Virus record (IMG/VR): IMGVR_UViG_3300030106_004058
Coordinates: 1 to 46,811 of that record
Source of the DNA: a virus
DNA: 46,811 nucleotides
Direction: 5' to 3' (one strand)
The notes under the pieces were generated by a model. It saw only the letters and a list, made by a program, of their open reading frames with translations. It had not been told where the DNA came from and made no database searches. The position numbers and the translations under genes are program-made. Numbering within the stretch: the stretch's first letter is position 1; each line of letters starts with the position of its first letter. Positions 21,545 to 34,625 of the stretch are shown in pieces.

Positions 21545-21571
21545 CAAATATAATAATTTTTTTGAATACAA
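21545..21571 (-). promoter_or_regulatory. groEL promoter (TTG-N16-TATATTTG)
   Basis: On the minus strand a TTG (21571-21569) is followed after 16 nt by a perfect TATATTTG (21552-21545), 27 nt before the groEL start. It abuts the repeat unit at 21575-21594, so a protein bound there could control this promoter. Confidence 0.6.
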
Positions 21572-21574
21572 CTA

Positions 21575-21767
21575 ATGTCGAGATGTCAACGATTTAAAGA
21601 TTCTATATATATATATATTTTCTCTTATATATAATATTTTATTACTATAAAAAATAGACTATTCTTTGACACCTTGACATCAGAGTATATTAAAAGATTG
21701 AAAATCAGTAAGTTAGAGTGATGTCAACAAAAAATATATTGACATCTTGATGTCGGTTTATGACATC
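21575..21767. repeat. Repeat locus 1: inverted TTGACATC units
   Basis: ATGTCGAGATGTCAACGATT (21575-21594) and TTCTTTGACACCTTGACAT (21662-21680) face each other across an AT-rich centre. GATGTCAA (21720-21727) and TTGACATC (21739-21746) form a further inverted pair with an 11-nt spacer, and GATGTC (749-754 of this kilobase) with GACATC (762-767) forms another. The same arrangement occurs at 32024-32195. Likely protein-binding sites, either operators or origin iterons. Confidence 0.8.
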
Positions 21768-21773
21768 TTATAT

Positions 21774-21808
21774 AAAAAAAGAGGCAGACTATAAAGTCTA
21801 ACCTCTTT
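21774..21808 (-). terminator. Intrinsic terminator for the gene at 21860-22069
   Basis: AAAGAGG (21778-21784) pairs with CCTCTTT (21802-21808), enclosing AGACT-ATAA-AGTCT (21786-21799). Read on the minus strand, the stem is followed by seven T. It isolates repeat locus 1 from the upstream transcription unit. Confidence 0.8.
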
Positions 21809-21859
21809 CACAACTAATCAAAACAGAACAAAATTGGGAAGTTGATTATCTTGTGGGAA

Positions 21860-22069
21860 TTAAAAATAAAGTTCGTTGAACTTCTTTCTATTTTCAGCTA
21901 CCTGAATACCTTCAGCTATTTGATTTATTTTTCTGTCGTTTTCTACAGCTCTTTTAATACGAGCCGCTTTAGCGATTCCACTTTCAGAAGGATAACGATC
22001 ATTTACTAATCTTCCCTTCTCTACTCGTAAACCGTCCATGTCCATTAATGTTTTAAATGTTCTATGCAT
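21860..22069 (-). CDS. Small basic hypothetical protein
   Basis: A 69-aa protein (MHRTFKTLMDMDGLRVEKGR), predicted helical and rich in Arg, Lys and Glu. It stands alone between a TACCTTTG motif 24 nt upstream and a terminator 50 nt downstream, so it is a self-contained gene. The family is not recognised. Confidence 0.65.
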   Translation of the reverse strand: MHRTFKTLMDMDGLRVEKGRLVNDRYPSESGIAKAARIKRAVENDRKINQIAEGIQVAENRKKFNELYF

Positions 22070-22092
22070 AAGTCTATTGTTTTCGTTTTTTA

Positions 22093-22100
22093 CAAAGGTA
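22093..22100 (-). promoter_or_regulatory. Promoter -7 motif (TACCTTTG)
   Basis: CAAAGGTA reads TACCTTTG on the minus strand, 24 nt before the start at 22069. No -33 TTG is visible. Confidence 0.45.
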
Positions 22101-22302
22101 ATAAAAATATATTAGATGTCTGGGGGTTGAGGGTTATATATGACCATACAGCGACAGGTCGGCAAACGAAAATGATTTTTTTTTCATAGGGGGGGTTATG
22201 ATTTAAAAAAACTTTGTTGACTTTTTTAGCTTTTTTTTGGTGGGAGTGGTGGCATGGTGGCGTGGTGTGGTGGGTGGTGGCTCTTGTTCCTTTGTCGGCT
22301 TT

Positions 22303-22354
22303 CCCTTTGTCCCTTGTTCCCTTTGTCCCTTGTTCCCTGTTCCCCTTTCCCCCC
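22303..22354 (-). repeat. Tandem 16-mer with seven C-runs (minus-strand G4 potential)
   Basis: CCCTTTGTCCCTTGTT occurs twice in perfect tandem (22303-22318 and 22319-22334). Together with the following runs there are seven runs of three to six C (303-305, 311-313, 319-321, 327-329, 335-337, 342-345, 349-354 within 22 kb), spaced 3-5 nt. The minus strand therefore fits the G3+ N1-7 quadruplex pattern several times over. Confidence 0.75.
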
Positions 22355-22395
22355 ATTATATAATATAATGTGTTCCCCCTTTCCCCTATTTAATA

Positions 22396-22432
22396 CCTCT
22401 TTAAACTTTGTTTACATACAAAGAGAAAGAGG
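22396..22432. other. Hairpin in the gene-free island
   Basis: CCTCTTT (22396-22402) pairs with AAAGAGG (22426-22432), and CTTTGT (22406-22411) with ACAAAG (22418-22423), leaving a 6-nt loop and a 3x2 internal loop. No T-run follows on either strand, so it is not a simple terminator; it could be a single-strand origin or a protein site. Confidence 0.55.
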
Positions 22433-22565
22433 TTAAACCCCCACCGAACCCCCCAAAACACAAACAAAACACAAAAAAAGGATCTTTTTTTTACGTTTAT
22501 AACTTGTTGATATTCAGTAAGTTAAAAATTATTTTACATTGTGAAAAGAAATAATTTAAAAAAAG

Positions 22566-22598
22566 TTTGTTTTATTAAATATTTTTATACTATATTTG
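22566..22598 (+). promoter_or_regulatory. Early promoter 1 (TTTG-N21-TATATTTG)
   Basis: TTTG (22566-22569), a 21-nt spacer and a perfect TATATTTG (22591-22598) precede the first early gene. The start-site region TTGTACAATAATTAAA (22596-22611) is identical to that of early promoter 2. Confidence 0.8.
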
Positions 22599-22636
22599 TA
22601 CAATAATTAAACATTTATTAATTAAAATTAAAACAA

Positions 22637-22819
22637 ATGAAAAAATACACTATCGCAAAAAAAGATTTAAAAATGAATAAAAATTGGTTGTATGCTTTAT
22701 CAATAGAGGGAAGAAAAGAATTTGAAAAAGGCAGTAAAGAAATAAAAACTTTGATATTAATGCAATTGGTACAAAATGGTAATATTTCAATGAATAACCT
22801 TTTACAAATAATAAAATAA
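22637..22819 (+). CDS. Small early protein, first gene of rightward block
   Basis: A 60-aa basic helical protein (MKKYTIAKKDLKMNKNWLYA) directly behind early promoter 1. Its leader (ATTAATTAAAATTAAAACAA) is repeated almost exactly before the next gene. First-expressed small phage proteins often redirect the host, but nothing specific is visible. Confidence 0.7.
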   Translation: MKKYTIAKKDLKMNKNWLYALSIEGRKEFEKGSKEIKTLILMQLVQNGNISMNNLLQIIK

Positions 22820-22847
22820 AAACAATTATTAATTAAAATTAAAACAA

Positions 22848-23336
22848 ATGAACACAATTAAAAAGAGGGTTAAAACCTTATTAAGCAAAAAAGAACAAGA
22901 AAAATATTTAGATTTACAATGGAAAAATTCGGTATTAATTTTTAAATGGGGGCGTAGTGGTTCTCATAAATGCACACTATATAATAAAAATGATGAAAAA
23001 CTCGGTTCGGCTGGTGGTGGTGGATATGATAAAAAAGGCGTTGCGTTTGCTCAATTTATAATGACTTATTTTACAAAAGAGTTAAAAAAGTTAAATTCTA
23101 AAGAGTTTTACGGCTTAACACATTACAACCCAAAAACCCATAAAAACCAATTAAAAAGCAGTAAAAATACAAATACTCGGCTTGATGGAGCTTGTGGTTT
23201 TGATTGTATGGTTAAAGTATTAAATAAAATTGGGTTTCAATTAGAATTTATAAAGGAGGGGAAATGGGATATAATATACAAATTAAACCCCCTACCAAAA
23301 AACCATCATTCACGAACAAAATATATATATAACTAA
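22848..23336 (+). CDS. Early protein of unknown function
   Basis: A 162-aa basic protein with a glycine-rich AGGGGYDKKG motif (about 54-63), an FYGLTHYNPKTH segment and LDGACGFDCMVKVL (about 112-125), which carries two Cys. It has no membrane segment. The Gly-rich and Cys motifs look conserved, but I cannot place the family. Confidence 0.75.
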   Translation: MNTIKKRVKTLLSKKEQEKYLDLQWKNSVLIFKWGRSGSHKCTLYNKNDEKLGSAGGGGYDKKGVAFAQFIMTYFTKELKKLNSKEFYGLTHYNPKTHKNQLKSSKNTNTRLDGACGFDCMVKVLNKIGFQLEFIKEGKWDIIYKLNPLPKNHHSRTKYIYN

Positions 23337-23366
23337 AGTTATACTGAGGAGCATTTAATATGCGAA

Positions 23367-23420
23367 ACAAAAGGGGGTGTAAAGACACAAACCACGTTGG
23401 TAGATGATTACCCCTTTTGT
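23367..23420 (+). ncRNA. Branched RNA element 1 (candidate)
   Basis: A perfect 10-bp stem, ACAAAAGGGG (23367-23376) with CCCCTTTTGT (23411-23420), encloses two 4-bp hairpins, GTGT-AAAG-ACAC (23377-23388) and ACCA-CGT-TGGT (23391-23401). The three-way fold lies between two early genes, ending 21 nt before the next ATG. A processing site, attenuator or small RNA are possible. There is no T-run, so it is not a standard terminator. Confidence 0.5.
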
Positions 23421-23441
23421 ATATAACAAAAATTAAATAAA

Positions 23442-23570
23442 ATGAAATATACATTAAAATTTTTACAATTCTATAAAGAATTTTTTGAGGAAGAGGGGGA
23501 TAAATGGAGTTTACAAGAGGTAAAACAAAAACTTATGGAGGATAATATAAAAGAATATCAACTTAATTAA
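23442..23570 (+). CDS. 42-aa acidic early protein
   Basis: A frame of 42 aa (MKYTLKFLQFYKEFFEEEGD) with leader AAATTAAATAAAATG like its neighbours. It is short and helical. The start is fixed by the leader; function unknown. Confidence 0.6.
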   Translation: MKYTLKFLQFYKEFFEEEGDKWSLQEVKQKLMEDNIKEYQLN

Positions 23571-23581
23571 AATAAAACAAA

Positions 23582-23830
23582 ATGAAAAATTTAGTATCAA
23601 TAGAAAAAAAGAATTTTATAAAAAAAGAATATGTAGAAAATTTAGATTACACATCTGCATATGATTTAGTTATGGAATTATTAGACAATTCATATTGTGA
23701 ACAAGGAGACATAAAAGAAATGATTGAAATATGTGCTTATTGTTTTCCAAACTTTTATAAATGTTGTAAATATATGTTACAAGATGATGTGAAAGAAGCT
23801 CATAATGATTGGATAGAAAACAACTGCTAA
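23582..23830 (+). CDS. Small acidic early protein
   Basis: An 82-aa protein (MKNLVSIEKKNFIKKEYVEN), predicted helical, with five Cys, including CAYCF and KCCKY spacing in the second half. It could bind metal. Not a recognised family. Confidence 0.7.
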   Translation: MKNLVSIEKKNFIKKEYVENLDYTSAYDLVMELLDNSYCEQGDIKEMIEICAYCFPNFYKCCKYMLQDDVKEAHNDWIENNC

Positions 23831-23860
23831 AAACAAATTAATAATTAAAAACAAAACAAA

Positions 23861-23995
23861 ATGGAAAAATGGTTAAAATCCGACAATGTAGTAAAATTAG
23901 ATAATAATAAATACATTGAACAAACTACACAATGGAAAAAAGAATTTACATTGAAAGAATTAAAAGCATATTATAAAAAAGAATTTATTAACTAA
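23861..23995 (+). CDS. 44-aa early protein
   Basis: A short frame (MEKWLKSDNVVKLDNNKYIE) behind the leader AAAACAAAACAAAATG, which is shared with the next gene. Charged, helical in its second half. Function unknown. Confidence 0.6.
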   Translation: MEKWLKSDNVVKLDNNKYIEQTTQWKKEFTLKELKAYYKKEFIN

Positions 23996-24013
23996 AATTA
24001 AAAACAAAACAAA

Positions 24014-24271
24014 ATGGATTTACAAAATTTTATTAAATCAAAAAAACAAATGTCAGTTAAAGAATTTAACAAAAAAAGCATTGAATATTTTGATGAAGAA
24101 ACAACAAAAGATTGTGGGATTGACTATGTGTTAGTTTATGATAAATATTATTATATATTGAAACATAATGACAATGACTATTCTTTGCAAATTGGGAGAG
24201 ATGATTTTGTCAATAAAGATTTGCATATTTTAGAAAAAAAGTTATTTAACTACATAAATGAATATTGTTAA
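24014..24271 (+). CDS. Small early protein
   Basis: An 85-aa protein (MDLQNFIKSKKQMSVKEFNK) with a Tyr-rich middle (DYVLVYDKYYYILKHND) that looks like beta strands. No membrane segment. The family is not recognised. Confidence 0.7.
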   Translation: MDLQNFIKSKKQMSVKEFNKKSIEYFDEETTKDCGIDYVLVYDKYYYILKHNDNDYSLQIGRDDFVNKDLHILEKKLFNYINEYC

Positions 24272-24289
24272 TAATTTAAACAAAACAAA

Positions 24290-24502
24290 ATGAAAACAAA
24301 AAACAATTTAACAGCAATTTTAATCGTATGGAGTTTATTAATGTTATTCTTAACATCTTGCTCAAGTAGTAAACTAACTATACAACAACAAAAGGATTTA
24401 TTGAAGATTGACAAAGAAATGAGTAAACTATGGAATGAATATGAATTTAAAGTAGATAGTTTATTCATTGAAAAAGAAAAAATTAAAAACTTAAACAAAT
24501 AA
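24290..24502 (+). CDS. Small phage lipoprotein
   Basis: A 70-aa protein with a lipoprotein signal peptide: basic start (MKTKNN), hydrophobic core (LTAILIVWSLLMLFL) and lipobox LTSC with C24. Mature residues 24-70 are a charged coiled-coil-like helix. It would be lipidated and held in the inner or outer membrane with the helix in the periplasm. Small early lipoproteins in other phages (for example T5 Llp) block superinfection by masking the receptor, so exclusion is a reasonable hypothesis. Rz1-type spanin is the alternative, but the gene is in the early block, far from the lysis genes. Confidence 0.75.
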   Translation: MKTKNNLTAILIVWSLLMLFLTSCSSSKLTIQQQKDLLKIDKEMSKLWNEYEFKVDSLFIEKEKIKNLNK

Positions 24503-24506
24503 AATT

Positions 24507-24689
24507 ATGGGAAATATGAGTTATTGCAGATTTGAGAATACTGCACGAGATTTAGAGGATTGCGTAGAAGCAATAGATAATAAAGAAACAAACGATTTAT
24601 CGGATTATGAAGTAAGAGGATTAGAAAAGATCCTACGATATGCTAAATATATCGTAGAGTTAGAAGATGAGATATTAAAAGATTATTAA
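24507..24689 (+). CDS. Conserved MSYCRFENT-type small protein
   Basis: A 60-aa protein (MGNMSYCRFENTARDLEDCV) followed by an acidic helical section. The MSYCRFxNT opening with DLxDC is one I remember as widespread in phages and bacteria. Function is not known to me. Leader AAATAAAATTATG. Confidence 0.75.
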   Translation: MGNMSYCRFENTARDLEDCVEAIDNKETNDLSDYEVRGLEKILRYAKYIVELEDEILKDY

Positions 24690-24708
24690 TTATTAAATAA
24701 ATAAAATT

Positions 24709-25173
24709 ATGGAAACAAAAACTTATGTATGGAAAACTTATTATGATGTGTGTGCTTATATGCAAGATGAGATTGACTTTTTTAAAGAAAACAAACAAGA
24801 ATTTCTTGTTATTATATTAGAAGATGAAGAAAGGGAAGTTAAAAGCGTAACAGATAAAGAGATAGAAGATTATTTTGAAAATGATTATTATATAGGGGAA
24901 AGGCATTGGGAAGATTTTCAATATATGTTAGAAGAAGAATTTACTCAACATATAGGTAAAGATGTGTATGTAGAGGGAATAAATATGGGATGGAGAAATT
25001 TAAGTGGAAAGAAAACTTTTACTATCAATGAAACTATTGATATATTTAGAGAGATTGCTCCTGAATGTGATCTGACTTATAAAATAAAAAAGGTAAAAGA
25101 AAAAGAATATGAAGTGAGAATAAGCCACCACGATAGCCCAATGGGAGAATATTATAACATTAAAATTAAATAA
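24709..25173 (+). CDS. Acidic early protein
   Basis: A 154-aa strongly acidic protein with a YVEGINMGWRNLSGKKTF section (about 86-103) and a C-terminal beta-rich SHHDSPMGEYY motif. It may be a small alpha/beta protein with DNA-mimic-like charge, but no family is recognised. Confidence 0.75.
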   Translation: METKTYVWKTYYDVCAYMQDEIDFFKENKQEFLVIILEDEEREVKSVTDKEIEDYFENDYYIGERHWEDFQYMLEEEFTQHIGKDVYVEGINMGWRNLSGKKTFTINETIDIFREIAPECDLTYKIKKVKEKEYEVRISHHDSPMGEYYNIKIK

Positions 25174-25175
25174 AA

Positions 25176-25385
25176 ATGAAAAAGTATTGGATTGAAAAAG
25201 TAGAATATCCTTATGGAAAGGATGGGTTTGCCGACTGCATACCCCATAAGAGTTATACTAATAAAAAGGTTGCGTTAAAAGATTTTGAAACTTTAGTAAA
25301 AAATAATTCTAATAATGATACACTAATTAGTTTATATGAATTAGATATTGCTAATGATGTTGATAATTTAATTAAACAAAAATAA
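25176..25385 (+). CDS. Small early protein
   Basis: A 69-aa protein (MKKYWIEKVEYPYGKDGFAD) beginning 2 nt after the previous stop. Beta-rich start followed by a helical section. Unknown family. Confidence 0.65.
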   Translation: MKKYWIEKVEYPYGKDGFADCIPHKSYTNKKVALKDFETLVKNNSNNDTLISLYELDIANDVDNLIKQK

Positions 25386-25408
25386 ATAGACAATTAAAAT
25401 TAAATAAA

Positions 25409-25564
25409 ATGGAAAAAGATATATTAGAAAGATTAATAATTCTTTTGGATGATATAGAAGAAACAACAGATATAAGTTGTATGATAAATTCAAAAGATTT
25501 ATTATTTGAATTAAAAGATGTGTATAACGAATTAAAAGAAAAAAAACTAACTAAAACTAAATAA
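25409..25564 (+). CDS. 51-aa acidic helical early protein
   Basis: A short frame (MEKDILERLIILLDDIEETT) with the full leader AATTAAAATTAAATAAAATG. Helical, one Cys. Function unknown. Confidence 0.6.
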   Translation: MEKDILERLIILLDDIEETTDISCMINSKDLLFELKDVYNELKEKKLTKTK

Positions 25565-25616
25565 ATTGGATTAGATATAGATGATAATTTTGAAGTAACA
25601 ATTAAAAAATAAAATT

Positions 25617-25913
25617 ATGAGAAAAATTACAAACGATAGCATAAATGCTTTTATGAATGCTAAAAAATTCAATAGACAAAACATGAATGTAGAAGTATTA
25701 CCCAACGTAACTATATTAAAGTTACACGGAAATATAATAGCATACCGATACAATGATCCTAAAAGAACATTAAGCATAACAAATGCAGGTTGGTTCAGTA
25801 ATACAACAAAAGAAAGATTAAACGCCTTACCTAATGTACATATAACACAAAAAAAATGGGTATGGTATTTAAACGGAAAAGAATGGAATGGAGAATTAAT
25901 AGATATTAACTAA
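25617..25913 (+). CDS. Conserved 98-aa phage protein (AGWFSNTTKERLN type)
   Basis: A basic protein with RKITNDSINAFMNAKKFNRQN at the start (about 2-22), ILKLHGNIIAYR and AGWFSNTTKERLNALP (57-72), ending WYLNGKEWNG. I remember this pattern as widely conserved in phages of many hosts, as an early protein of unknown function. Compact, no membrane segment. Confidence 0.8.
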   Translation: MRKITNDSINAFMNAKKFNRQNMNVEVLPNVTILKLHGNIIAYRYNDPKRTLSITNAGWFSNTTKERLNALPNVHITQKKWVWYLNGKEWNGELIDIN

Positions 25914-25926
25914 AATTAAATACAAA

Positions 25927-26082
25927 ATGGAAAAAATTAAAATTATGGACAAAGAAAGATTATTTAATTTTCTAAAAGATGATTTAGGAAAGTTAGAACA
26001 AGATATTAAAGAAAACAATAAAGAAAAGATTGAACAATTTTTCTCTTATTGGAAGCAACATATTAACGATTTAAATAAATAA
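25927..26082 (+). CDS. 51-aa early protein
   Basis: A short frame (MEKIKIMDKERLFNFLKDDL), fully helical, ending 1 nt before the next start. ATG 25945 (MDKERL) is an in-frame alternative. Unknown function. Confidence 0.6.
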   Translation: MEKIKIMDKERLFNFLKDDLGKLEQDIKENNKEKIEQFFSYWKQHINDLNK

Positions 26083-26083
26083 A

Positions 26084-26287
26084 ATGAAAAACTTAAATGA
26101 AATTAAAAAACAAGTAGAAAAAGATCTTGACTGGACAAGAAAAGACAAAAAAGATTGGAAGAAGTTTAAGCAAAAACTACCCCAAATAATAATTGAAGCT
26201 ATTATTTTTGGAGTATTTGCGAGTATATTTTTAGGAGGAATAGCTTTTATTATAATAAAATTCCTTGAAGTAATATACAATTTGTAA
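26084..26287 (+). CDS. Small early membrane protein
   Basis: A 67-aa protein with a highly charged N-terminal half (Lys/Asp-rich, about 1-30) and one long hydrophobic segment (about 33-62, including IIFGVFASIFLGGIAFIII). The topology is probably N-in with a single span. It is an early gene, so host takeover or exclusion at the membrane is more likely than lysis. Confidence 0.7.
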   Translation: MKNLNEIKKQVEKDLDWTRKDKKDWKKFKQKLPQIIIEAIIFGVFASIFLGGIAFIIIKFLEVIYNL

Positions 26288-26305
26288 AAAAAATTAAACA
26301 TTTAC

Positions 26306-26336
26306 TTGACTTGTATTAAACTATTTTGTAATATTG
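26306..26336 (+). promoter_or_regulatory. Early promoter 2 (TTG-N20-TAATATTG)
   Basis: TTG (26306-26308), a 20-nt spacer and TAATATTG (26329-26336; one mismatch to TAnnTTTG) lie in the gap before 26361. The start-site sequence TTGTACAATAATTAAA (26334-26349) is identical to early promoter 1. Confidence 0.7.
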
Positions 26337-26360
26337 TACAATAATTAAAATTAAATAGAT

Positions 26361-26507
26361 ATGACACATTTTGAATTTACGACAATATGCTTACAACATT
26401 TAGTAACCCCAATGTTAGTATGGGAGTTAGAAGAAACAAAAGAATTAATTAAGAAAGATAAATTGAATAAAGAAACACTAACTAAAATAATAATAAATAA
26501 CTTTTAA
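26361..26507 (+). CDS. 48-aa early protein
   Basis: A short frame (MTHFEFTTICLQHLVTPMLV) directly behind early promoter 2. The first half is moderately hydrophobic, the second half charged and helical. Unknown function. Confidence 0.55.
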   Translation: MTHFEFTTICLQHLVTPMLVWELEETKELIKKDKLNKETLTKIIINNF

Positions 26508-26511
26508 AATT

Positions 26512-26754
26512 ATGACTAAACAACAATATGAAAACCTATTAAGGTTTTTAGCCGAAGAGTATGCACATTTTAAATATCAAGATGATGCTGTTGAATGGAA
26601 TGAAACCGAACAAAAACACGTGTTCAGAAGAGAAGTAAATTCTTGGATCAATTATGAAATTGAAAATTTAAGAATGACTTTTGAGATGTATAATTGTAAA
26701 CCTAAAAAAGAAAATATAATAAAGAGAATTATTAACAAACTTAAAATTAAATAA
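26512..26754 (+). CDS. Small early protein
   Basis: An 80-aa protein (MTKQQYENLLRFLAEEYAHF), helical, with a basic C-terminal tail (IIKRIINKLKIK). Unknown family; dense packing and leader AAAATTATG support it. Confidence 0.65.
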   Translation: MTKQQYENLLRFLAEEYAHFKYQDDAVEWNETEQKHVFRREVNSWINYEIENLRMTFEMYNCKPKKENIIKRIINKLKIK

Positions 26755-26756
26755 AA

Positions 26757-27332
26757 ATGCCTAATCATGTATATACGAGGATTACTATTTCTGATCCTAC
26801 TAAAAAGCAAAAAGAAATACTAAAGAAAATTGAGAAAGCAGAAGGATTATGTAGATACTACAAACCTATGCCTAAAGAATTAGAGGGGACAACATCTCCA
26901 TCCGATAAACCAAATTGGTATGATTGGTGTTTAGAAAATTGGGGAACAAAATGGGGGTGTTATGATTTTGAGATGGATGATGATGTAATATCATTTACAT
27001 CTGCTTGGAGTCCAATAGGAGAAAATATAATTCAAATGTTTGCTAAAGATTTTCCATCTTTTACCTACTCATGGGAAGAAGAACAAGGTTATGGATCAGA
27101 AATGGATTACGAGGGTGGAGAATGTATTATACAATCAGATTATGATTGTCCTCAATGGGAAGAGATTGAAGAGGTAGAAACTAAAGACAATATATGCTAC
27201 ACTATAACTAAACTACTTTATGAACATCCTAATTATCATGATGGAGTGGGTTATTATGCCGATTGGAGTAACGATTTTTTAGGAAAAACATTAGAGGAAG
27301 CAAAGAATAACCTATTAAAAGAAAGTATATAA
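26757..27332 (+). CDS. YubB/Api92-like ferredoxin-fold protein
   Basis: A 191-aa acidic protein starting MPNHVYTRITISDPTKKQKE, with WCLENWGTKWGCYDFEMDDD (about 61-80) and a later FTSAWSPIGENII segment. These are the hallmarks of the DUF1281/Api92-like proteins (YubB ferredoxin-like domain) carried by plasmids and phages. The role is unknown; it is probably not an iron-sulfur protein despite the fold name. It overlaps the next gene by 1 nt. Confidence 0.75.
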   Translation: MPNHVYTRITISDPTKKQKEILKKIEKAEGLCRYYKPMPKELEGTTSPSDKPNWYDWCLENWGTKWGCYDFEMDDDVISFTSAWSPIGENIIQMFAKDFPSFTYSWEEEQGYGSEMDYEGGECIIQSDYDCPQWEEIEEVETKDNICYTITKLLYEHPNYHDGVGYYADWSNDFLGKTLEEAKNNLLKESI

Positions 27333-27559
27333 TGAATTATGATGACTGGAAATTAGCGACTCCTGATTATAGCGATATGGTAAGTTCTTGTTGTGGAGAT
27401 GAGATTGAAGAAATAGAAGATGAAAATTGTGAGGAAAGAATAGTATGTATAGCTTGTGGAGATTATTGTGAGATAATTGAAGACTATGAATACGAAGCGA
27501 TCCAAAGAGAAAACTATGAAGAGGAGAGAGCAGAAGCTAAAAGGAAATATAATGAATAA
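27332..27559 (+). CDS. Small acidic zinc-ribbon protein
   Basis: A 75-aa protein with two Cys clusters, SSCCGDEI (19-20 region) and CIACGDYC (about 38-45), the arrangement of a small zinc ribbon, followed by a highly charged helix. Such proteins bind nucleic acid or protein partners; here the target is unknown. Translationally coupled to the preceding gene. Confidence 0.7.
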   Translation: MNYDDWKLATPDYSDMVSSCCGDEIEEIEDENCEERIVCIACGDYCEIIEDYEYEAIQRENYEEERAEAKRKYNE

Positions 27560-27560
27560 T

Positions 27561-27674
27561 AAATAAGGTGTGTACTGGTTGAGGTTAATGGCAGTAATCA
27601 GATATATCGCCCTCAAGCACACTTAATAAGAGATAAAATCATTTGCGATACCAAACTCTTGCCTTATTTTTTTT
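27561..27674 (+). ncRNA. Branched RNA element 2 with T-run (candidate)
   Basis: AAATAAGG (27561-27568) pairs with CCTTATTT (27662-27669) as an outer stem. Inside are GTGTG/CACAC plus TTGAGG/CCTCAA (27568-27622) and AAGAG/CTCTT with ATC/GAT (27628-27660). A run of eight T ends the element (27667-27674). It fills the space between two early genes. It could be a small RNA with its own terminator, or an attenuator. It does not have tRNA landmarks. Confidence 0.5.
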
Positions 27675-27695
27675 AATAACTAAAAACAAAATAAA

Positions 27696-27872
27696 ATGGA
27701 AAAAGAAAAATTAGAAGATAAAATAGAAAACTATATGAAATGGTATAGAGAGGATTGTTGCGATCCTTACGGAGAAATGGAGTGGTTAATTAAAACACTA
27801 CTGGAAACCGAATATAAAAAGGATATGATGGATATATTAAACGATACCTATGAGTTATATAAAAACAATTAA
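27696..27872 (+). CDS. 58-aa acidic early protein
   Basis: A short frame (MEKEKLEDKIENYMKWYRED) with a CC pair at about 22-23; helical. Leader AAAACAAAATAAAATG. Unknown function. Confidence 0.6.
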   Translation: MEKEKLEDKIENYMKWYREDCCDPYGEMEWLIKTLLETEYKKDMMDILNDTYELYKNN

Positions 27873-27883
27873 AATTAAATAAA

Positions 27884-28180
27884 ATGAAAGTAAAAATAAT
27901 ACAAAGAAGCGTTTATCATAAGATAGCAGAAGTAGAAATAGAGCTACCAAAAGAAATTACTGATATTAAAATAAATAAATGTTATAATACCTATGGAGAA
28001 TTTGATATACAACAATATCTCATTGACAATGAGAATTTATATGTAGATAAGATAGATGAGAAAATATCAAAAGCAGAATATGAATTTGGTTTTGGATTAG
28101 GAGATGGTATGGATGAAATGGATCAAGAAAGTGAATGGAGATATGAATGTGAACAATTAGAAATAGGAGGACATTTATAA
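27884..28180 (+). CDS. 98-aa acidic early protein
   Basis: The protein starts MKVKIIQRSVYHKIAEVEIE, a beta-rich opening, and carries FGFGLGDGMDEMDQESEW near 72-89. The opening resembles small phage proteins often found near methyltransferase genes, but I do not know a function. Confidence 0.65.
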   Translation: MKVKIIQRSVYHKIAEVEIELPKEITDIKINKCYNTYGEFDIQQYLIDNENLYVDKIDEKISKAEYEFGFGLGDGMDEMDQESEWRYECEQLEIGGHL

Positions 28181-28191
28181 AAATTAAAATT

Positions 28192-28392
28192 ATGAAAGAA
28201 ATACATAAATTGATTTTAAAAGAAAAACAAAAACAATATCCTAATAAGGAATATATACAATGGTTGCAACAATTAAGTGATGAGAATTTAACTGAACATT
28301 TTTTAGAAGAAGTAAAAGAAAAAATGTTTTTAAAAAAACTACATCAAGAAAACACAATAACTATGGATGAATACTTAAGAGGAAAAGGATGA
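28192..28392 (+). CDS. 66-aa early protein
   Basis: A helical, charged protein (MKEIHKLILKEKQKQYPNKE) that overlaps the methyltransferase start by 4 nt (ATGA), so it is probably co-translated with it. Unknown family. Confidence 0.65.
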   Translation: MKEIHKLILKEKQKQYPNKEYIQWLQQLSDENLTEHFLEEVKEKMFLKKLHQENTITMDEYLRGKG

Positions 28393-29033
28393 AAGTATTA
28401 GAATTATTTGCAGGATCACGAAGTATAGGGAAAATTTGCGACCATCAAAACTTAATGGTAAATTCGTATGATAACCAAAGTTTTCCTAATATAGATTACG
28501 TGGAAGATATATTTGATTTTGATTACAAAAACAAATTTATTCCTGATATGATTTGGGCATCCCCTCCATGTACTGGATTTAGTGTTGCTTGTATAGGTAG
28601 GAATTGGGTAAAGGGAGAAGTTTTTACCCCTAAAACTGATTCAGCAAAGTTAGGAATACGGATTATGGAAAAGACATTAGAAATTATAAAAAACTATTTA
28701 AGTGTTAACCCTAACCTTATATGGTATATAGAAAACCCAAGAGGTAAAATGAGGAAAGCTCCACATTGGGATAAAATGGATTGTGTTAGACATACTTTAA
28801 CTTATTGCCAATATGGAGATACAAGAATGAAACCAACGGATATATGGACAAATGATTACGATTGGAAGCCAAAACCTATGTGTAAAAATGGAGATCCTTG
28901 TCATATATCAGCACCTCGAGGAAGTCAAACAGGAACACAAGGGATGAAAGGAAATTATGAGAGAAGTAAAATACCTCAACAACTATGCGAGGAAGTAATA
29001 AAAAATGTATTAATTAAATATAAAAAATTATGA
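28389..29033 (+). CDS. Minimal cytosine-C5 DNA methyltransferase
   Basis: A 214-aa protein with the C5-methyltransferase motifs in order. Motif I is LELFAGSRSIGK (4-15, SAM binding). Motif IV is ASPPC (57-61, catalytic C61). Motif VI is ENPRG (115-119, ENP in place of ENV). A motif VIII-like QYGDTRMKPTDIWTN follows (141-155). It is about 100 aa shorter than bacterial Dcm-type enzymes and has almost no room for a target-recognition domain. This short type is common in phages and may protect DNA from host restriction. A base-modifying variant acting on nucleotides cannot be excluded. Confidence 0.85.
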   Translation: MKVLELFAGSRSIGKICDHQNLMVNSYDNQSFPNIDYVEDIFDFDYKNKFIPDMIWASPPCTGFSVACIGRNWVKGEVFTPKTDSAKLGIRIMEKTLEIIKNYLSVNPNLIWYIENPRGKMRKAPHWDKMDCVRHTLTYCQYGDTRMKPTDIWTNDYDWKPKPMCKNGDPCHISAPRGSQTGTQGMKGNYERSKIPQQLCEEVIKNVLIKYKKL

Positions 29034-29251
29034 AAGAAACAATAGAAGTACCAGTATATTGGTATGAAGATGAAAACGGATACAAGACAATAGACTTTGA
29101 AGAAATGCGAAGTGTATTTGAATATGAATTAAAATATTTATATCTGGGAACTAAAAAAGGAAAGAATGAACAATTTAAAAAAATATATAAGCAATGGAAA
29201 AAGAGACAACTAAAACAGCAGACCTTATTAAAGAAGTCGCAAGAGAAGTAG
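29030..29251 (+). CDS. 73-aa small protein
   Basis: A protein starting MKETIEVPVYWYEDENGYKT, with a basic Lys/Gln-rich C-terminus. It overlaps the methyltransferase by 4 nt and the next gene by 58 nt. The unusually long second overlap suggests the C-terminal part may be less constrained. Unknown function. Confidence 0.6.
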   Translation: MKETIEVPVYWYEDENGYKTIDFEEMRSVFEYELKYLYLGTKKGKNEQFKKIYKQWKKRQLKQQTLLKKSQEK

Positions 29252-29481
29252 TAATGTTATTATTGGAAAAGAATAAAGCGTATGGAGATACAGCGAATGA
29301 TCCTCCTAAAATCTTTTCCAAACTATCAGCTAAAGAGGGAATACTGGCGAGGATTGATGACAAGTTAAGTAGAATAAAAGTAATGGGACTTAACGATAAA
29401 ACCGAAGATACTATGCTTGATTTGATTGGATACCTTATATTGTATAGAGTACAATGTAAAAAAGAAATAAAAAAAAGTTAA
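29194..29481 (+). CDS. MazG-like/DUF1599-type nucleotide pyrophosphohydrolase
   Basis: A 95-aa helical protein containing KNKAYGDTANDP (28-39), ILARIDDKLSRI (about 50-61) and EDTMLDLIGYLILYR (about 71-85). The order KxxxYG, then DKxxRI, then DxxxDxxGY is that of small all-alpha NTP pyrophosphatases of the MazG/DUF1599 group; the acidic residues would bind Mg2+. It likely trims or cleans the nucleotide pool during infection, next to a DNA methyltransferase. Confidence 0.75.
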   Translation: MEKETTKTADLIKEVAREVVMLLLEKNKAYGDTANDPPKIFSKLSAKEGILARIDDKLSRIKVMGLNDKTEDTMLDLIGYLILYRVQCKKEIKKS

Positions 29482-29488
29482 ACATTTA

Positions 29489-29519
29489 TTGTTAAAGTAA
29501 TGAGAATTTATTACTTTAG
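29489..29519 (+). promoter_or_regulatory. Early promoter 3 (TTG-N20-TACTTTAG)
   Basis: TTG (29489-29491), a 20-nt spacer and TACTTTAG (29512-29519; one mismatch to TAnnTTTG) precede the DnaA-like gene. The sequence TTAAACATTTA upstream of TTG also occurs at the same place in early promoter 2. It should drive the recombination operon down to the terminator at 31988. Confidence 0.65.
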
Positions 29520-29549
29520 CACATTAAATTAAATAAAATAAAATATACT

Positions 29550-29846
29550 ATGAAAAGAGAAATTTTTATTGCCTATGCAAAGGCAGTAGCAGAACAATTT
29601 CACCTAACTTTAGAGCAGATGTTTGATAAAACAAAGAAAAGGGAATGTGTAGATGCTCGACAGATCCTTTATTATTTATGTATGGAAAGACCTATTCGTA
29701 TATCTTATATACAAAGATTTATGGAAGAGCAAGGTCATTCAGTTAGTCATTCTACTATTATACATGGATATAAACAAGCTAAAAAACTAATTGATAACGA
29801 CAAGGATTATCAAGGCATTCTTAATTATGCAGAAAAAAATCTATAA
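29550..29846 (+). CDS. DnaA domain-IV-like DNA-binding protein
   Basis: A 98-aa protein that looks like a free-standing DnaA C-terminal domain. The helix with VDARQILYYLC (34-44) matches the DnaA ARQIAMYL pattern, and VSHSTIIHGY (65-74) matches the signature DHTTVxHA. The AAA+ part is absent. It would bind a specific DNA sequence, either as a replication initiator or as a repressor. First gene of the recombination operon, with a second DnaA-IV-like protein at 36553-37071. Confidence 0.75.
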   Translation: MKREIFIAYAKAVAEQFHLTLEQMFDKTKKRECVDARQILYYLCMERPIRISYIQRFMEEQGHSVSHSTIIHGYKQAKKLIDNDKDYQGILNYAEKNL

Positions 29847-30256
29847 TGTACACTTTGGAAGAAGTATTTATACAAGCTACTTTAGATAGAGGATCAATTA
29901 AATCTCCTTTAGTCAATGGGCAAAGTATTATTAATTATGGATTAAAAATAAAAAAGTTTCCATCAGGTATTGAGATATTAAATTGCAATAGAGGGGGAGA
30001 TTATTTTAAGGAGTTAAGTGAAAAAGAATATAAGTTAGTGTTAGCTTATGGTTGGAAAGAAGGAGCTACCAGAGTAGCTATGTCAAATTGTGAAATTAAA
30101 TTAGATTTAATAGAACAAAAGATGAGGGAAGAAATTAACACAAGAAAGAATGACAAGTACATTCAGCATTTAAAAATGCGAAGAGAAAAAATTTTAAATA
30201 AATATACTAATCTAAAACAGAAATTAAATTATGGAAAAAAAGAGAAACATTTTTAA
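29846..30256 (+). CDS. Hypothetical protein in recombination operon
   Basis: A 136-aa protein (MYTLEEVFIQATLDRGSIKS) with a beta-rich first half (INYGLKIKKFPSGIEILN, GGDYFKELSEKEY) and a basic coiled-coil second half. It overlaps the DnaA-like gene by 1 nt and the annealing protein by 26 nt. Unknown, but probably linked to replication or recombination by position. Confidence 0.7.
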   Translation: MYTLEEVFIQATLDRGSIKSPLVNGQSIINYGLKIKKFPSGIEILNCNRGGDYFKELSEKEYKLVLAYGWKEGATRVAMSNCEIKLDLIEQKMREEINTRKNDKYIQHLKMRREKILNKYTNLKQKLNYGKKEKHF

Positions 30257-30839
30257 ACAACTATCAGCAATATCAATCAAAGACAAGACAGATAAAAAAG
30301 GTAAGTTTGATTACTTATCTTGGGCTACAGCCTGGAGCATATTAAAAGCAGAATATCCTTATGCTCAACGAAAAGTATATGAGTGTCAAGAAACTGGATT
30401 AAACTTTTTTACTGATGGTAAGACAGCTTATGTAAAAGTAGGTATAACTATATATGAGATGGAACATATTGATTACCTACCAGTTATGGATTATAGAAAC
30501 AACTCTATTCCTATAGAGAAAGTAACATCAATGGATGTTAACACAGCCATACAAAGATCAACAGCTAAAGCTATTGCAATGCATGGTTTAGGTTTAAGTT
30601 TGTGGATAGGAGAAGATATAACAGAGGTTGTAAGACAACCAGTAGCAGTTAGTAAAAATCCAGTACCTAAAAAACCAACAACTATAGAATTAAATATAGG
30701 AGATGAGAATTGGGTTAAAGTATTAAAGTATATAGCTCAAAACAAAGAGTTAGGTTTACCAAAGATTATAAAAAATCTTGAAACTAAATACAATATAAAA
30801 GCGGTTGTAAAAAAGGAGCTATCTAAACATATTAAATAA
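30231..30839 (+). CDS. Single-strand annealing protein (Sak3/DUF1071 type)
   Basis: A 202-aa protein. The N-terminal two thirds carry the Sak3 (DUF1071) pattern: FDYLSWATAWSILKAEYPYA (26-45), VKVGITIYEMEHIDYLPVMD (68-87), MDVNTAIQRSTAKAIAMHGLGLS (101-123) and LWIGED. These proteins anneal complementary single strands in phage recombination. Residues about 130-202 are a linker and a small helical domain that may bind the exonuclease or SSB. It overlaps the RecE-like gene by 1 nt, so annealing protein and exonuclease are made together. Confidence 0.82.
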   Translation: MEKKRNIFKQLSAISIKDKTDKKGKFDYLSWATAWSILKAEYPYAQRKVYECQETGLNFFTDGKTAYVKVGITIYEMEHIDYLPVMDYRNNSIPIEKVTSMDVNTAIQRSTAKAIAMHGLGLSLWIGEDITEVVRQPVAVSKNPVPKKPTTIELNIGDENWVKVLKYIAQNKELGLPKIIKNLETKYNIKAVVKKELSKHIK

Positions 30840-31576
30840 TGGATAAAGATTTAAAGTTATTAAAAGAAGATCTTCATTATTACGGGAAGTTTGGTAAGCA
30901 GTTTTTATCTAACTCGGATATCATTACTTTACTAACTGAACCTAAAAACTTTGGTAAAGAGAAAGAGATGACTAAAGCTATGCTAATAGGAAGATATTTT
31001 CATACAGCTATGTTAGAACCTGAAAAGGTAGATAGTGTAGAGTATTGGGTAATAGATGCTTCAAGTAGAAATACTAAAAAGTATAAAGAAGAATTACTAC
31101 ATTATAAAAGACCTTTAATGATGTTAGCTAAAGAGAAAGAAGAAATCAATAAAGCTATTAGTACAATGAAAACTAATTTAGAATTTCACGATGCTATTTA
31201 TGATGAAGATAATGAGTTTGAAGTACCAGCTATACATGAGTTAATGGGATTAAAATGGAAAGGGAAAGCAGATATAGTAGGGAAAGATATGATTATAGAT
31301 CTTAAAACTACATCTAACATTAAGGACTTTAAATATAGTGCGAGAAAATATAATTATGATAGTCAAGCATATTTATATCAACAATTTTTTGATAAGCCGT
31401 TGGTGTTTTATGTGGTGGATAAATTAAGTTTAGAATTAGGGGTGTTTTATCCCTCTACAAAATTTTTAGATAATGGTAAAGAAAAAGTTGAAAGAGCAGT
31501 TGAGGTGTACAATAAGTTTTTTAGCGAGGATGCTGAAGAAAATATTGAAACTTACATCATCAAAGAAACTCTATAA
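30839..31576 (+). CDS. RecE/YqaJ-like PD-(D/E)XK exonuclease
   Basis: A 245-aa nuclease. The landmarks are LIGRYFHTAMLEPE (49-62), KGKADIV (141-147, D145), IIDLKTT (152-158, D154 and K156) and YDSQAYLYQ (173-181, Q176). This is the core of RecE/YqaJ-type double-strand exonucleases, which resect one strand to give the substrate for the annealing protein encoded just before. Together they form a Red-like recombination pair. The next 120 nt hold a possible short frame, described separately. Confidence 0.85.
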   Translation: MDKDLKLLKEDLHYYGKFGKQFLSNSDIITLLTEPKNFGKEKEMTKAMLIGRYFHTAMLEPEKVDSVEYWVIDASSRNTKKYKEELLHYKRPLMMLAKEKEEINKAISTMKTNLEFHDAIYDEDNEFEVPAIHELMGLKWKGKADIVGKDMIIDLKTTSNIKDFKYSARKYNYDSQAYLYQQFFDKPLVFYVVDKLSLELGVFYPSTKFLDNGKEKVERAVEVYNKFFSEDAEENIETYIIKETL

Positions 31577-31592
31577 AAGAAAAAATAGTGTT

Positions 31593-31697
31593 GTGTGGTT
31601 GCAAGTTCCAACCAACTACTCATCACGAGCTGAACGTGACCAGGTCATGGAAGCTACAATGGACTTGTTGGAGCAAATAATTTATAATAATAAATAA
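31593..31697 (+). CDS. Possible 34-aa gene with GTG start
   Basis: The 123 nt between exonuclease and SSB-like genes contain a protein-like frame (WLQVPTNYSSRAERDQVMEA, then a helix to IIYNNK) ending 2 nt before the next ATG. No ATG near its beginning is free of the exonuclease gene; GTG 31593 is the best start. It could also be a +1-frame extension of the exonuclease. Tentative. Confidence 0.35.
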   Translation: MWLQVPTNYSSRAERDQVMEATMDLLEQIIYNNK

Positions 31698-31699
31698 TC

Positions 31700-31966
31700 A
31701 TGGCAGAAGAAAAAATTTATGTCGGAAGTGGGGTTTCTAAATTTGATGGAAACCTAATCTCATGTAGCGTTTGTTTAACTGATTTACCTCAAGAACACAT
31801 GTTCGAATATAATGGTAAGAAGTATATCAAACTTAACGTGAATGCAAAAAGGGATGGAGCAGATGAGTATGGTAAAACGCATTACGTTGCGGTTGATACC
31901 TACAAACCTGAACCAAAAAAAGAAGAACCAACTCCTGATAAAGTGGAGGAAGATCTTCCTTTCTAA
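31700..31966 (+). CDS. SSB-like single-strand DNA-binding protein
   Basis: An 88-aa protein. The first 70 residues look like a small beta-rich domain (ISCSVCLTDLPQEHMFEYNG, KYIKLNVNAKRDG, THYVAVD). Residues 70-88 are a Pro/Glu linker ending EEDLPF, the acidic-aromatic tip typical of SSB proteins that recruits partner enzymes. It is last in the operon of annealing protein and exonuclease, with a terminator 22 nt downstream. Smaller than host SSB; the CSVC pair could bind zinc. Confidence 0.7.
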   Translation: MAEEKIYVGSGVSKFDGNLISCSVCLTDLPQEHMFEYNGKKYIKLNVNAKRDGADEYGKTHYVAVDTYKPEPKKEEPTPDKVEEDLPF

Positions 31967-31987
31967 ACATTACTTTAGTTGAAAGGG

Positions 31988-32014
31988 TAGGGGGTTTATT
32001 CCCCCTATTTTTTT
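31988..32014 (+). terminator. Intrinsic terminator of the recombination operon
   Basis: TAGGGGG (31988-31994) pairs with CCCCCTA (32001-32007) around a 6-nt loop, followed by seven T. It ends the operon that begins at early promoter 3 and separates it from repeat locus 2. Confidence 0.9.
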
Positions 32015-32023
32015 CCTTTAGTG

Positions 32024-32195
32024 GTGTCAAGGTGTCAACGATTGGGTAATTTTATACTACCTATTGTTGTTATATATAATTATTTTTTATTTCTTTATAT
32101 TTTATATATATTCTTTGACATCTTGACATTAAAAAAAGAAATATAAGAAGTAAATAAGTAAAATATAATACTAATCGTTGACATCAAGTTGACAT
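32024..32195. repeat. Repeat locus 2: inverted TTGACATC units
   Basis: GTGTCAAGGTGTCAACGATT (32024-32043) and TTCTTTGACATCTTGACAT (32111-32129) match the two main units of repeat locus 1 at 17 of 20 and 18 of 19 positions, in the same order and orientation. AATCGTTGACATC (32173-32185) is the inverse of GGTGTCAACGATT (32031-32043) at 12 of 13 positions, and TTGACAT recurs at 32189-32195. The arms enclose a very AT-rich centre. It lies directly before the primase-helicase gene. Confidence 0.85.
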
Positions 32196-32213
32196 TTAAC
32201 AACATCAGAACAA

Positions 32214-34625
32214 ATGGAAATAACAATATTTAAAGACATAAAGGACACGGCCCAACCTTTTTACAGAGATGTAGGTATAATAATAGAAAGAATAAAAGAG
32301 GGAGCATCACAAGAAGTAGTACGAGCAATAAGATCAGAAAAAGATAAAGAAAAAAGAAATCAATTAAAGCAGTCATTACCAGCAATTTGTTTTAGTGGTA
32401 AATTTACAAAAAGAAACGATGCATCTATTACGCAACATAGTGGTTTGATTTGTTTAGATTTTGATGGGTATGAAAGTGATAAACTTTTATTAGAAGAAAA
32501 AGAAAAACTAACTAAAGATAGATATGTTTATTCAGTTTTCATTTCACCAAGTGGATTAGGTTTAAAAGTTTTAATTAAGATACCATCAGAGGTAGATACT
32601 CATAAACAATTTTTTAATTCTCTTCAACATCATTTTGATTCTCCATACTTTGATGAGACGTGTAAAAATGTATCAAGGGTTTGTTACGAAAGTTATGATC
32701 CTTTAATTTTTATTAATGAGCAGTCAAGTGTATTTAATCAAATTACAGAACAAGAATATCAAGAAGTAGTAAAACATAAAGATGTCCAAACAATACCTAT
32801 TACTGATGAAAATAAAATTGTAGAAATTTTAATGAAGTGGTGGGAAAGAAAGTATGGACTTAATAGTGGAGAAAGAAACAACAATGTATATATATTAGCA
32901 TCGGCCTTTAATGATTTTGGAGTTAATAAAACTTTAGCAGAGTATGTGATGACTAATTTTGGGAGTAGAGATTTTTCTCAAAGTGAAATAAAAAGAACTA
33001 TTCATTCAGCTTATAAACAAGTCCAAAATTTTGGAACTAAGTATTATGAGGATGAAGAAAAGGTTAATGATGTAAAGTCTAAACTACGTAAAGGTGTATC
33101 AAAAGGGGAAATAAAAGCCCAAATAGAAGAAGAATCGGATATAGAAGATAGTGTACTGGATAATGTTATTAGAAGATTAGAAGAGGAACAAGACAAACAA
33201 AAGTTCTGGAGTAAATCAGAGAAGGGTGTAGTTAAAATCATTCATATATCTTTTAAAAAGTTTTTAGAAGAGAATGGGTTTTATAAATTTAATCCTGAAG
33301 GTAGTAAGAATTATGTCTTCGTAAAGGTTACTAACAATTTAATAGACCATACTTCAGAAAAAGAAATAAAAGATTTTGTTTTAAGTTATTTATTAGAGAT
33401 AGATGATATTTCTGTATATAATTATTTTGCAGAATGTACTCGTTATTTTAGAGAGGAGTTTCTTACTTTACTTTCATCTATTAATGTTTACTTTATTGCA
33501 GACAGCAAGGATAGTGCTTACTTATATTATAAAAATTGTGCAGTAAAAATAACTAAAGATGAGATTACCCCTATTGATTATTTAGATTTAGGAGGATACG
33601 TATGGAAGGATCATGTCATTGATAGAGTGTTTGATTTATGTCAAGTAACTAATTGTGATTATAAAACTTTTATAAATAATATTAGTGGAGGTACAGATAA
33701 AAGAGTAAGATCAATGGAATCTACTATAGGTTATTTATTGCATGGTTGGAAAAATTTATCTTATTGTCCAGCTACTATTTTAAATGATGAATTAATATCA
33801 GATAATCCTGAAGGAGGAACAGGTAAAGGGTTGTTTATGAATGGTATATCTCACATGAAAAAATTAGTTGTTATAGATGGTAAGTCTTTTAACTTTGAAA
33901 AATCATTTGCTTATCAGTTAGTATCAGCAGATACACAAATACTTTGCTTTGATGATGTTAAAAAACATTTTGATTTTGAAAGATTGTTCAGTGTGGTAAC
34001 TGAAGGGTTAACTCTTGAAAAGAAAAATAAAGATGCAATTAAAATACCATTTAGTAAATCTCCAAAGGTAGCCATCACTACTAACTATGCTATTAAAGGG
34101 AAAGGGTCGTCATTTGAAAGAAGAAAGTGGGAATTAGAGTTGAGTCAATTTTATACCAAAGAGTTTACACCACTGGTAGAGTTTGGTAAACTTATGTTTG
34201 GAGAGTGGGATGATAATGACTGGTGTCAATTTGACAACTACATGATCACGTGCCTACAATTATACTTAGATAAAGGATTAATTAAAAGTGATTTTGTTAA
34301 TTTAAAAACAAGACAATTCTCAGCAGAAACCTGTCATGAGTTTATAGAATGGTGTGGGGTCATTGATGGAAAGAAACATCAGAAGTTAATTACTAACACA
34401 AAAATATACAAGCACGATTTGTATGTAGATTTTACGGATGAACATCCTGATTATGCACCCAAAGCTAAGATGGCATTAAGTAGAAATCGTTTTGGTAAAT
34501 GGTTAGTTTCTTATTCTCAGTTTAAATATGAATGTGATCCTTTACAAGGTAGAGACAAGATAGGTAGATGGATAGAGTTTGTTAATAAATCTTATTATGA
34601 CAAACAAGAATCATTAGAGTTATGA
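32214..34625 (+). CDS. Primase-helicase (VirE-N domain plus SF3 helicase)
   Basis: An 803-aa protein. Residues about 1-180 resemble the VirE N-terminal/BT4734-like primase domain: AICFSGKFTKRND, GLICLDFDGY, ISPSGLGLKVLIKI and NVSRVCYESYDP. Residues about 200-285 form a helical linker. The C-terminal helicase has Walker A PEGGTGKG (near 534), Walker B ILCFDDVKK (near 576) and motif C KVAITTNYA (near 617), the SF3 layout. It would open and prime the phage origin. SF3 proteins often act at an origin beside their own gene, and repeat locus 2 lies just upstream. It overlaps the next helicase gene by 4 nt. Confidence 0.85.
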   Translation: MEITIFKDIKDTAQPFYRDVGIIIERIKEGASQEVVRAIRSEKDKEKRNQLKQSLPAICFSGKFTKRNDASITQHSGLICLDFDGYESDKLLLEEKEKLTKDRYVYSVFISPSGLGLKVLIKIPSEVDTHKQFFNSLQHHFDSPYFDETCKNVSRVCYESYDPLIFINEQSSVFNQITEQEYQEVVKHKDVQTIPITDENKIVEILMKWWERKYGLNSGERNNNVYILASAFNDFGVNKTLAEYVMTNFGSRDFSQSEIKRTIHSAYKQVQNFGTKYYEDEEKVNDVKSKLRKGVSKGEIKAQIEEESDIEDSVLDNVIRRLEEEQDKQKFWSKSEKGVVKIIHISFKKFLEENGFYKFNPEGSKNYVFVKVTNNLIDHTSEKEIKDFVLSYLLEIDDISVYNYFAECTRYFREEFLTLLSSINVYFIADSKDSAYLYYKNCAVKITKDEITPIDYLDLGGYVWKDHVIDRVFDLCQVTNCDYKTFINNISGGTDKRVRSMESTIGYLLHGWKNLSYCPATILNDELISDNPEGGTGKGLFMNGISHMKKLVVIDGKSFNFEKSFAYQLVSADTQILCFDDVKKHFDFERLFSVVTEGLTLEKKNKDAIKIPFSKSPKVAITTNYAIKGKGSSFERRKWELELSQFYTKEFTPLVEFGKLMFGEWDDNDWCQFDNYMITCLQLYLDKGLIKSDFVNLKTRQFSAETCHEFIEWCGVIDGKKHQKLITNTKIYKHDLYVDFTDEHPDYAPKAKMALSRNRFGKWLVSYSQFKYECDPLQGRDKIGRWIEFVNKSYYDKQESLEL

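Follow-up and report, generated by a model that had tools for sequence, protein, structure and literature searches.

The DNA analysed here (the window, 46,811 bp) comprises positions 1–46811 of the 59,828-bp virus record IMGVR_UViG_3300030106_004058. It carries two copies of a composite repeat element, 10.4 kb apart, one next to the chaperonin gene groEL and the other next to the gene for a primase-helicase (Table 1). Each copy includes two long units, ATGTCGAGATGTCAACGATT and TTCTTTGACACCTTGACATC at groEL and GTGTCAAGGTGTCAACGATT and TTCTTTGACATCTTGACAT at the primase, that lie in inverted orientation on either side of an AT-rich centre of approximately 67 bp, with an intrinsic terminator beyond. 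Every long unit is itself a tandem of two 7–8-bp half-sites placed 8 bp apart. On the + strand both loci read in the same order, namely block C (tandem), the 67-bp AT-rich stretch, block B (tandem, inverted to C), a spacer block and block A (extra sites). One composite element is present twice, as direct repeats in identical genomic orientation, and, because the copies are oriented alike, groEL (− strand) lies beyond block C while the primase-helicase gene (+ strand) lies beyond block A. The original prediction, made from the sequence alone, had noted the two matching loci and the long units inverted around an AT-rich centre with a terminator beyond, and these are present as described. It had also listed extra inverted pairs in each locus. 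These were seen at groEL, where block A has sites in both orientations, but at the primase block A consists of two direct half-sites 11 bp apart (32178–32185 and 32189–32196), near the primase start.

The half-site word TTGACATC occurs six times in the window compared to 1.24 copies expected, and none of 100 shuffles attained six. When the wider record was also searched for copies of the sites, the count was again six, with all copies in the two loci (four in 21582–21746 and two in 32115–32185) and none scattered elsewhere. Both loci are genuine, and chance does not account for them: across 40 dinucleotide-shuffled genomes, the most that any 8-mer achieved was four copies restricted to a pair of 200-bp windows. 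An identical crossover core was not found in the two loci, which have only the half-sites in common and diverge in the centre, and no DnaA boxes (TTATNCACA) were visible by eye in either locus.

Scanning IMG/VR with the primase-helicase of the window identified at least 80 loci at 70–89 % identity, and these relatives are referred to as genomes (G numbers) or loci (L numbers). The nearest annotated relative is MW202828.1, a podovirus contig of 60,850 bp. Scored by eye, the groEL-side composite was present in each of the 33 genomes for which enough sequence was available. On the primase side, nearly all relatives have the terminator followed by C, AT-rich DNA, B and A, though some are missing one block, and block A is made up of two or three direct copies of words such as AAATCAACATC, often abutting the start codon. 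All genomes compared have the two copies oriented alike, and the stretches separating half-sites are not conserved among relatives. The architecture is retained in about 80 related viral contigs. Conservation at groEL and at the primase is the rule, with one small clade, considered below, lacking the primase copy. An inserted gene separates the primase from an intact element in L026, and groEL is likewise set apart from its element by a gene in G006 and G040. The element nonetheless persists, indicating a unit that is able to survive separation from its neighbour. The inserted gene in L026 (490–846) is of unknown function.

The word found in the half-sites differs between lineages. It is RTGTYRA in most relatives, ATGACRA in L011, L020–23 and the L042/57/58 group, ATGYTCA in L027, L030 and L032, and ATTCCA in L061/65/71/76 and in L084. 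On a tree of the primases built using residues 1–650, words have arisen repeatedly (ATTCCA twice, YTC twice and ACR at least twice). However often it has changed between lineages, the word is nearly always identical at both loci of one genome. The groEL and primase loci share a mean of 15.4 7-mers within genomes versus 4.3 between genomes, a mean that none of 20,000 permutations reached, and reversing the primase-side sequence reduced the sharing to 2.4. An unbiased search for clustered words in five genomes (G000, G013, G002, G035 and MW202828) returned a top or near-top word common to the two loci. A match between positions 10 kb apart is most simply caused by a single DNA-binding protein encoded in the genome, and it is very probable that a sequence-specific phage protein acts at both loci. 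There is thus good support for the original proposal that the loci share a binding site for a single protein.

The candidates for this protein were the primase-helicase and two proteins, P1 and P2, that carry a DnaA domain IV and no AAA+ domain. P1 was found in most relatives, in nearly every contig reaching far enough, while the ATTCCA clade (L061/65/71/76) yielded no P2. The end of P1 is overlapped by orf136 (29846–30256), which is present in 72 relatives, is without a known domain and may work with P1. The proteins were compared in a close clade of 14 near relatives, in which ACR words (L011, L020, L021 and L023) and TYR words (ten genomes) both occur. Eight residue columns of the primase-helicase separate the ACR from the TYR words, and three of these (residues 772, 780 and 783) fall within 12 residues in the wing of its C-terminal domain. 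It is the only one of eight universal proteins with any such residues, there being none in P1, P2, Sak, the exonuclease, the product of a small pre-primase gene, the helicase or orf136, and none of the 1001 possible four-genome choices yields more separating columns than the true split. In addition, the P1 helix-turn-helix is identical in L010 and L011 and that of P2 nearly so, yet their words differ. The P1 recognition helix was rejected as the sole cause of specificity because identical helices go with different words. The original prediction had pointed to DnaA-IV-like proteins and two do exist, but the primase-helicase fits better as the binder of the sites, a role that on the sequence comparisons we consider about equally probable and improbable.

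The C-terminal 158 residues of the primase-helicase were modelled using AlphaFold2 (AF2), which predicted a strand-helix-helix-strand-strand winged helix with a predicted local distance difference test score (pLDDT) of approximately 91–96 in that part. A model of the whole protein had a mean pLDDT of 63, and its helicase part is unreliable. Most of the top Foldseek matches in the PDB are winged-helix DNA-binding proteins, none of them with a significant E-value, and the match to the P4 origin-binding domain (1ka8) has an E-value of 1.1 and 17 % identity. Among viral models, the only significant Foldseek matches are phage primases. PDB sequence searches with the primase-helicase gave no match, and no solved Rep was significantly matched.

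The surroundings of the groEL copy were also compared, with the caveat that the counts are inflated by kinship among the genomes: a TAnnTTTG box is found 24–42 bp before the groEL ATG in 32/33 genomes, and a match to the integration host factor (IHF) consensus WATCARNNNNTTR is found between blocks B and A at groEL in 24/33 (2.8 expected) and at the primase in 7/31, a weak signal. Most genomes have no TAnnTTTG box before the primase. In most genomes, block C and the groEL promoter box are separated by 14–23 bp, so the groEL copy probably has an effect on the chaperonin promoter too. The groEL-side IHF matches are usually in a near-constant position, 21 of them on the same strand, and may be bound by IHF or HU. 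The consensus used is that of E. coli. A fixed inverted repeat of approximately 21 bp, TAACTA-N9-TAGTTA, is present between B and A in many elements but was only modestly above shuffles and was set aside; at groEL the IHF-like core is the stronger signal.

No description of such an element was found in the papers searched. Known replication systems were compared. In phage P4, two cis sites located apart from one another, ori1 and crr, contain the same repeats and are bound by its primase-helicase, the alpha protein, which has a C-terminal winged-helix origin-binding domain. The window likewise includes two separated cis elements with the same word, here the putative initiator site, and a primase-helicase with a predicted C-terminal winged helix. 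In contrast to P4, the sites are 10.4 kb apart and both of one composite type, one of them is joined to a chaperonin promoter, and the primase-helicase shares no significant sequence similarity with P4 alpha. As in iteron plasmids of the RepA type and at the lambda O iterons, direct repeats spaced by roughly one turn of the helix are combined here with a neighbouring AT-rich stretch and an IHF-like motif, and the sites adjoin the gene for the proposed initiator, but no RepA-type protein was found and there are two inverted sets and two loci. The domain IV of P1 and P2 and the box-sized sites recall DnaA systems, though an AAA+ domain is missing, the words differ from TTATNCACA, and neither P1 nor P2 follows the words across the close clade examined.

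The origins of Staphylococcus aureus pathogenicity islands (SaPIs) and phage-inducible chromosomal islands (PICIs) consist of two iteron sets flanking an AT-rich stretch (PMC6092414), and their Rep/Cch2 helicases use the C-terminal domain to bind iterons beside their own gene (PMC7581432). This type of layout, two sets of short iterons around an AT-rich stretch, is found in both window loci and in most relatives, and here too there is a helicase gene alongside, the product of which has a predicted C-terminal winged helix (compare PMC6092414 and PMC7581432). The differences are that the element is upstream of the helicase gene rather than 3′ of it as in PICIs, that it is duplicated with the second copy at groEL, that the primase-helicase has a BT4734-like N-domain, and that the host genome is an approximately 60-kb tailed phage of Bacteroidota type and not a satellite. 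The reading that fits the elements best is a duplicated SaPI/P4 arrangement; membership is not claimed, and homology to solved initiators is not significant.

More distant phages were also examined. Elemovirus phages, which were isolated on Flavobacterium, include groEL and the N-domain of the primase, and their match to the primase-helicase covers residues 1–284 only, stopping before the helicase/winged-helix part. P1 was not detected in them and no element was found at groEL, and they were set aside as an isolated model for the latter reason. The Bacteroides phage BT-TP2 has a cluster of GTTACAA/GTTACGA iterons approximately 0.5 kb past the helicase-relative gene, and in the fecal phage MT835542 a cluster of CCGTACAA iterons is approximately 2.3 kb past the helicase match. 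In both, the iterons are 0.5–3 kb from a distant helicase relative, the words are unrelated to those of the window, and P1 and P2 were not detected. No iteron cluster was found beside the primase of Polaribacter phage Leef_1. On balance, this comparison favours the helicase over P1 as the iteron partner.

Taken as a whole, the analysis points to replication elements rather than pure operators, which on sequence grounds we consider reasonably likely. The specific interpretation we prefer, which may be right or wrong with about equal probability, is that the two loci are a duplicated replicator of the SaPI/P4 type, with the primase-helicase as the most likely initiator and the groEL copy joined to the chaperonin promoter. 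The original prediction is partly supported, the paired origins being the favoured one of its options. Each locus would be a cis-acting replication element in which two inverted iteron sets flank an AT-rich stretch. The C-terminal winged helix of the primase-helicase would bind the tandem and inverted half-sites, and two helicase assemblies would then face each other across the AT-rich centre and open it, permitting helicase loading and primed synthesis as proposed for SaPI/PICI Rep and the P4 alpha protein. Located 10.4 kb away, the second copy could be a partner site like P4 crr, involved in pairing or looping and in copy-number control, or it could be an alternative origin. As the groEL copy adjoins the chaperonin promoter, binding of the initiator could couple chaperonin expression to replication.

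Several observations weigh against this interpretation. Mantel-type distance tests do not single out the primase-helicase; in one or another of them, comparable correlations with the word are also given by P1, the exonuclease, Sak and orf136. The remaining separating residues in the primase-helicase (28, 178, 207, 286 and 475) lie outside the winged helix, so the primases of L011 and L020–23 may partly share ancestry, which the primase tree, giving no firm placement of L011 relative to L020–23, also allows. The fold matches are individually weak. The primase-side copy was not found in the clade L074/L083/L087/L088, although the groEL copy is retained in G042 (L083) and all five ATGTCGYG copies in G041 (L087) are at groEL, and this clade speaks against a universal need for both sites. 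Cumulative GC skew, which had been proposed as a check, tracks gene direction and no independent origin signal was found in the record. Finally, the 14–23 bp spacing between block C and the groEL promoter box in most genomes also suits an operator.

The main rival, which is unlikely but has to be considered seriously, is a transcription-factor role for P1 (or P2), which would bind at both loci and switch groEL and the primase-helicase on or off, the AT-rich centre being simply promoter DNA. It corresponds to the paired operators of the original prediction, and the Bacteroidota-type promoter adjoining the groEL copy in 32/33 genomes keeps it in contention. A terminator precedes each element, such that the gene behind needs a promoter there, P1 is almost universal among contigs of sufficient reach, boxes of approximately 9 bp bound by DnaA domain IV are a fitting size, and P1 distance correlates with word distance (r 0.38). 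However, the helix-turn-helix shared by the P1 proteins of L010 and L011, the absence of word-separating residues from P1 and P2, and the failure to find P2 in the ATTCCA clade do not fit with these proteins reading the word. Nor does a regulator readily explain why most genomes are without the box before the primase or why the element is kept where an inserted gene cuts it off (L026, G006 and G040), and inverted iteron sets around an AT-rich centre exceed the needs of an operator.

Less probable again is that the loci are origins at which P1, with or without P2, is a DnaA-like initiator recognising the sites and recruiting a primase-helicase that itself has no site specificity. P1 does have the origin-binding domain of DnaA and sits in the replication block, and Elemovirus is without both a detected P1 and the element. 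On the other hand, P1 is without an AAA+ domain to melt DNA and does not vary with the word among the close relatives, and the distant phages with the helicase have iterons nearby but no detectable P1. That the sites bind a host protein, with the word following the host range of each lineage, is improbable. Word changes do follow lineages, which may track hosts, and an IHF-like motif is present, but the words are found almost only at two loci of the phage, next to phage genes. We know of no host regulator with 7–9-bp words as variable as these. Recombination sites that bracket the early block, for exchange, inversion or excision of the 10.4-kb segment, were suggested by the two similar sequences on either side of it but can effectively be discounted, as the half-sites are short and divergent, sequence outside them diverges strongly, there is no exact crossover core, the orientation is the same in all genomes compared and no relative was seen with the block inverted or missing.

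If the elements are duplicated replicators, a SaPI/P4-like layout is present, in two copies, in a large group of tailed phages. It is possible, though rather doubtful, that a widespread group of approximately 60-kb chaperonin-encoding phages uses such a replicator, with the initiator also controlling the chaperonin via the groEL promoter and the site code rewritten in step at both sites several times as the group evolved. The link to groEL raises the question of whether a replication protein itself controls a phage chaperonin. The dozens of natural word variants, together with the initiator sequences, form a data set for the recognition code of the primase-helicase winged helix, and the elements could serve as parts for replicating plasmids in flavobacteria.

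Table 1. Positions of the two elements and associated features in the window
Feature	Position	Strand	Basis
groEL	19929..21518	-	PHROG 5725 chaperonin GroEL, E 4.5e-130
TATATTTG, Bacteroidota-type -7 box (TAnnTTTG) of groEL, 34 bp before ATG	21545..21552	-	sequence
groEL element block C, tandem half-sites (reverse complement AATCGTTGACATCTCGACAT), directly upstream of groEL promoter	21575..21594	-	position conserved in relatives
groEL element AT-rich centre, candidate melting region	21595..21661		sequence
groEL element block B, tandem half-sites TTCTTTGACACCTTGACATC, inverted to C	21662..21681	+	sequence
AATCAGTAAGTTA, match to E. coli IHF consensus WATCARNNNNTTR, between B and A	21703..21715	+	motif match
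groEL element block A, GATGTCAA / TTGACATC / TTGATGTC / ATGACATC, both orientations	21720..21767		sequence
Intrinsic terminator of leftward operon upstream of groEL element	21774..21809	-	sequence; same place in relatives
P1, 98 aa, DnaA domain-IV helix-turn-helix only	29550..29846	+	PF08299 E 1.9e-10, above curated cut-off
Intrinsic terminator after small gene preceding primase element	31989..32016	+	sequence
Primase element block C, tandem half-sites (GTGTCAAGGTGTCAACGATT on + strand)	32024..32043	-	conserved in relatives
Primase element AT-rich centre, candidate melting region	32044..32110		sequence
Primase element block B, tandem half-sites TTCTTTGACATCTTGACAT	32111..32129	+	sequence
Primase element block A, direct half-sites TTGACATC, TTGACATT, 17 bp before ATG	32178..32196	+	sequence
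Primase-helicase: BT4734-like_N, PriCT_1, DUF5906, predicted C-terminal winged helix	32214..34625	+	Pfam, AF2, Foldseek
Predicted winged-helix coding region, residues ~725-792	34386..34589	+	AF2; residues 772, 780, 783 track word (close clade)
P2, 172 aa, DnaA domain-IV helix-turn-helix	36553..37071	+	PF08299 E 5.4e-8

Other features of the window were noted. The cumulative GC skew has a local minimum at approximately 22 kb, at the groEL element, and a maximum at approximately 38 kb, mirroring gene orientation. Across the terminator from the groEL element, 21860–22069 encodes a 69-aa protein that is found in many relatives, apparently with two forms of the C-terminus. Between 22608 and 27892, small early genes are directly preceded by an AT-rich leader resembling AATTAAAATTAAATAAAATG in at least eight cases, in what looks like a recurrent translation-start context with no Shine-Dalgarno motif. 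In the late block, a 2736-aa protein (38348–46558) has no convincing Pfam match, and MW202828 has an 11.6-kb gene in this position.

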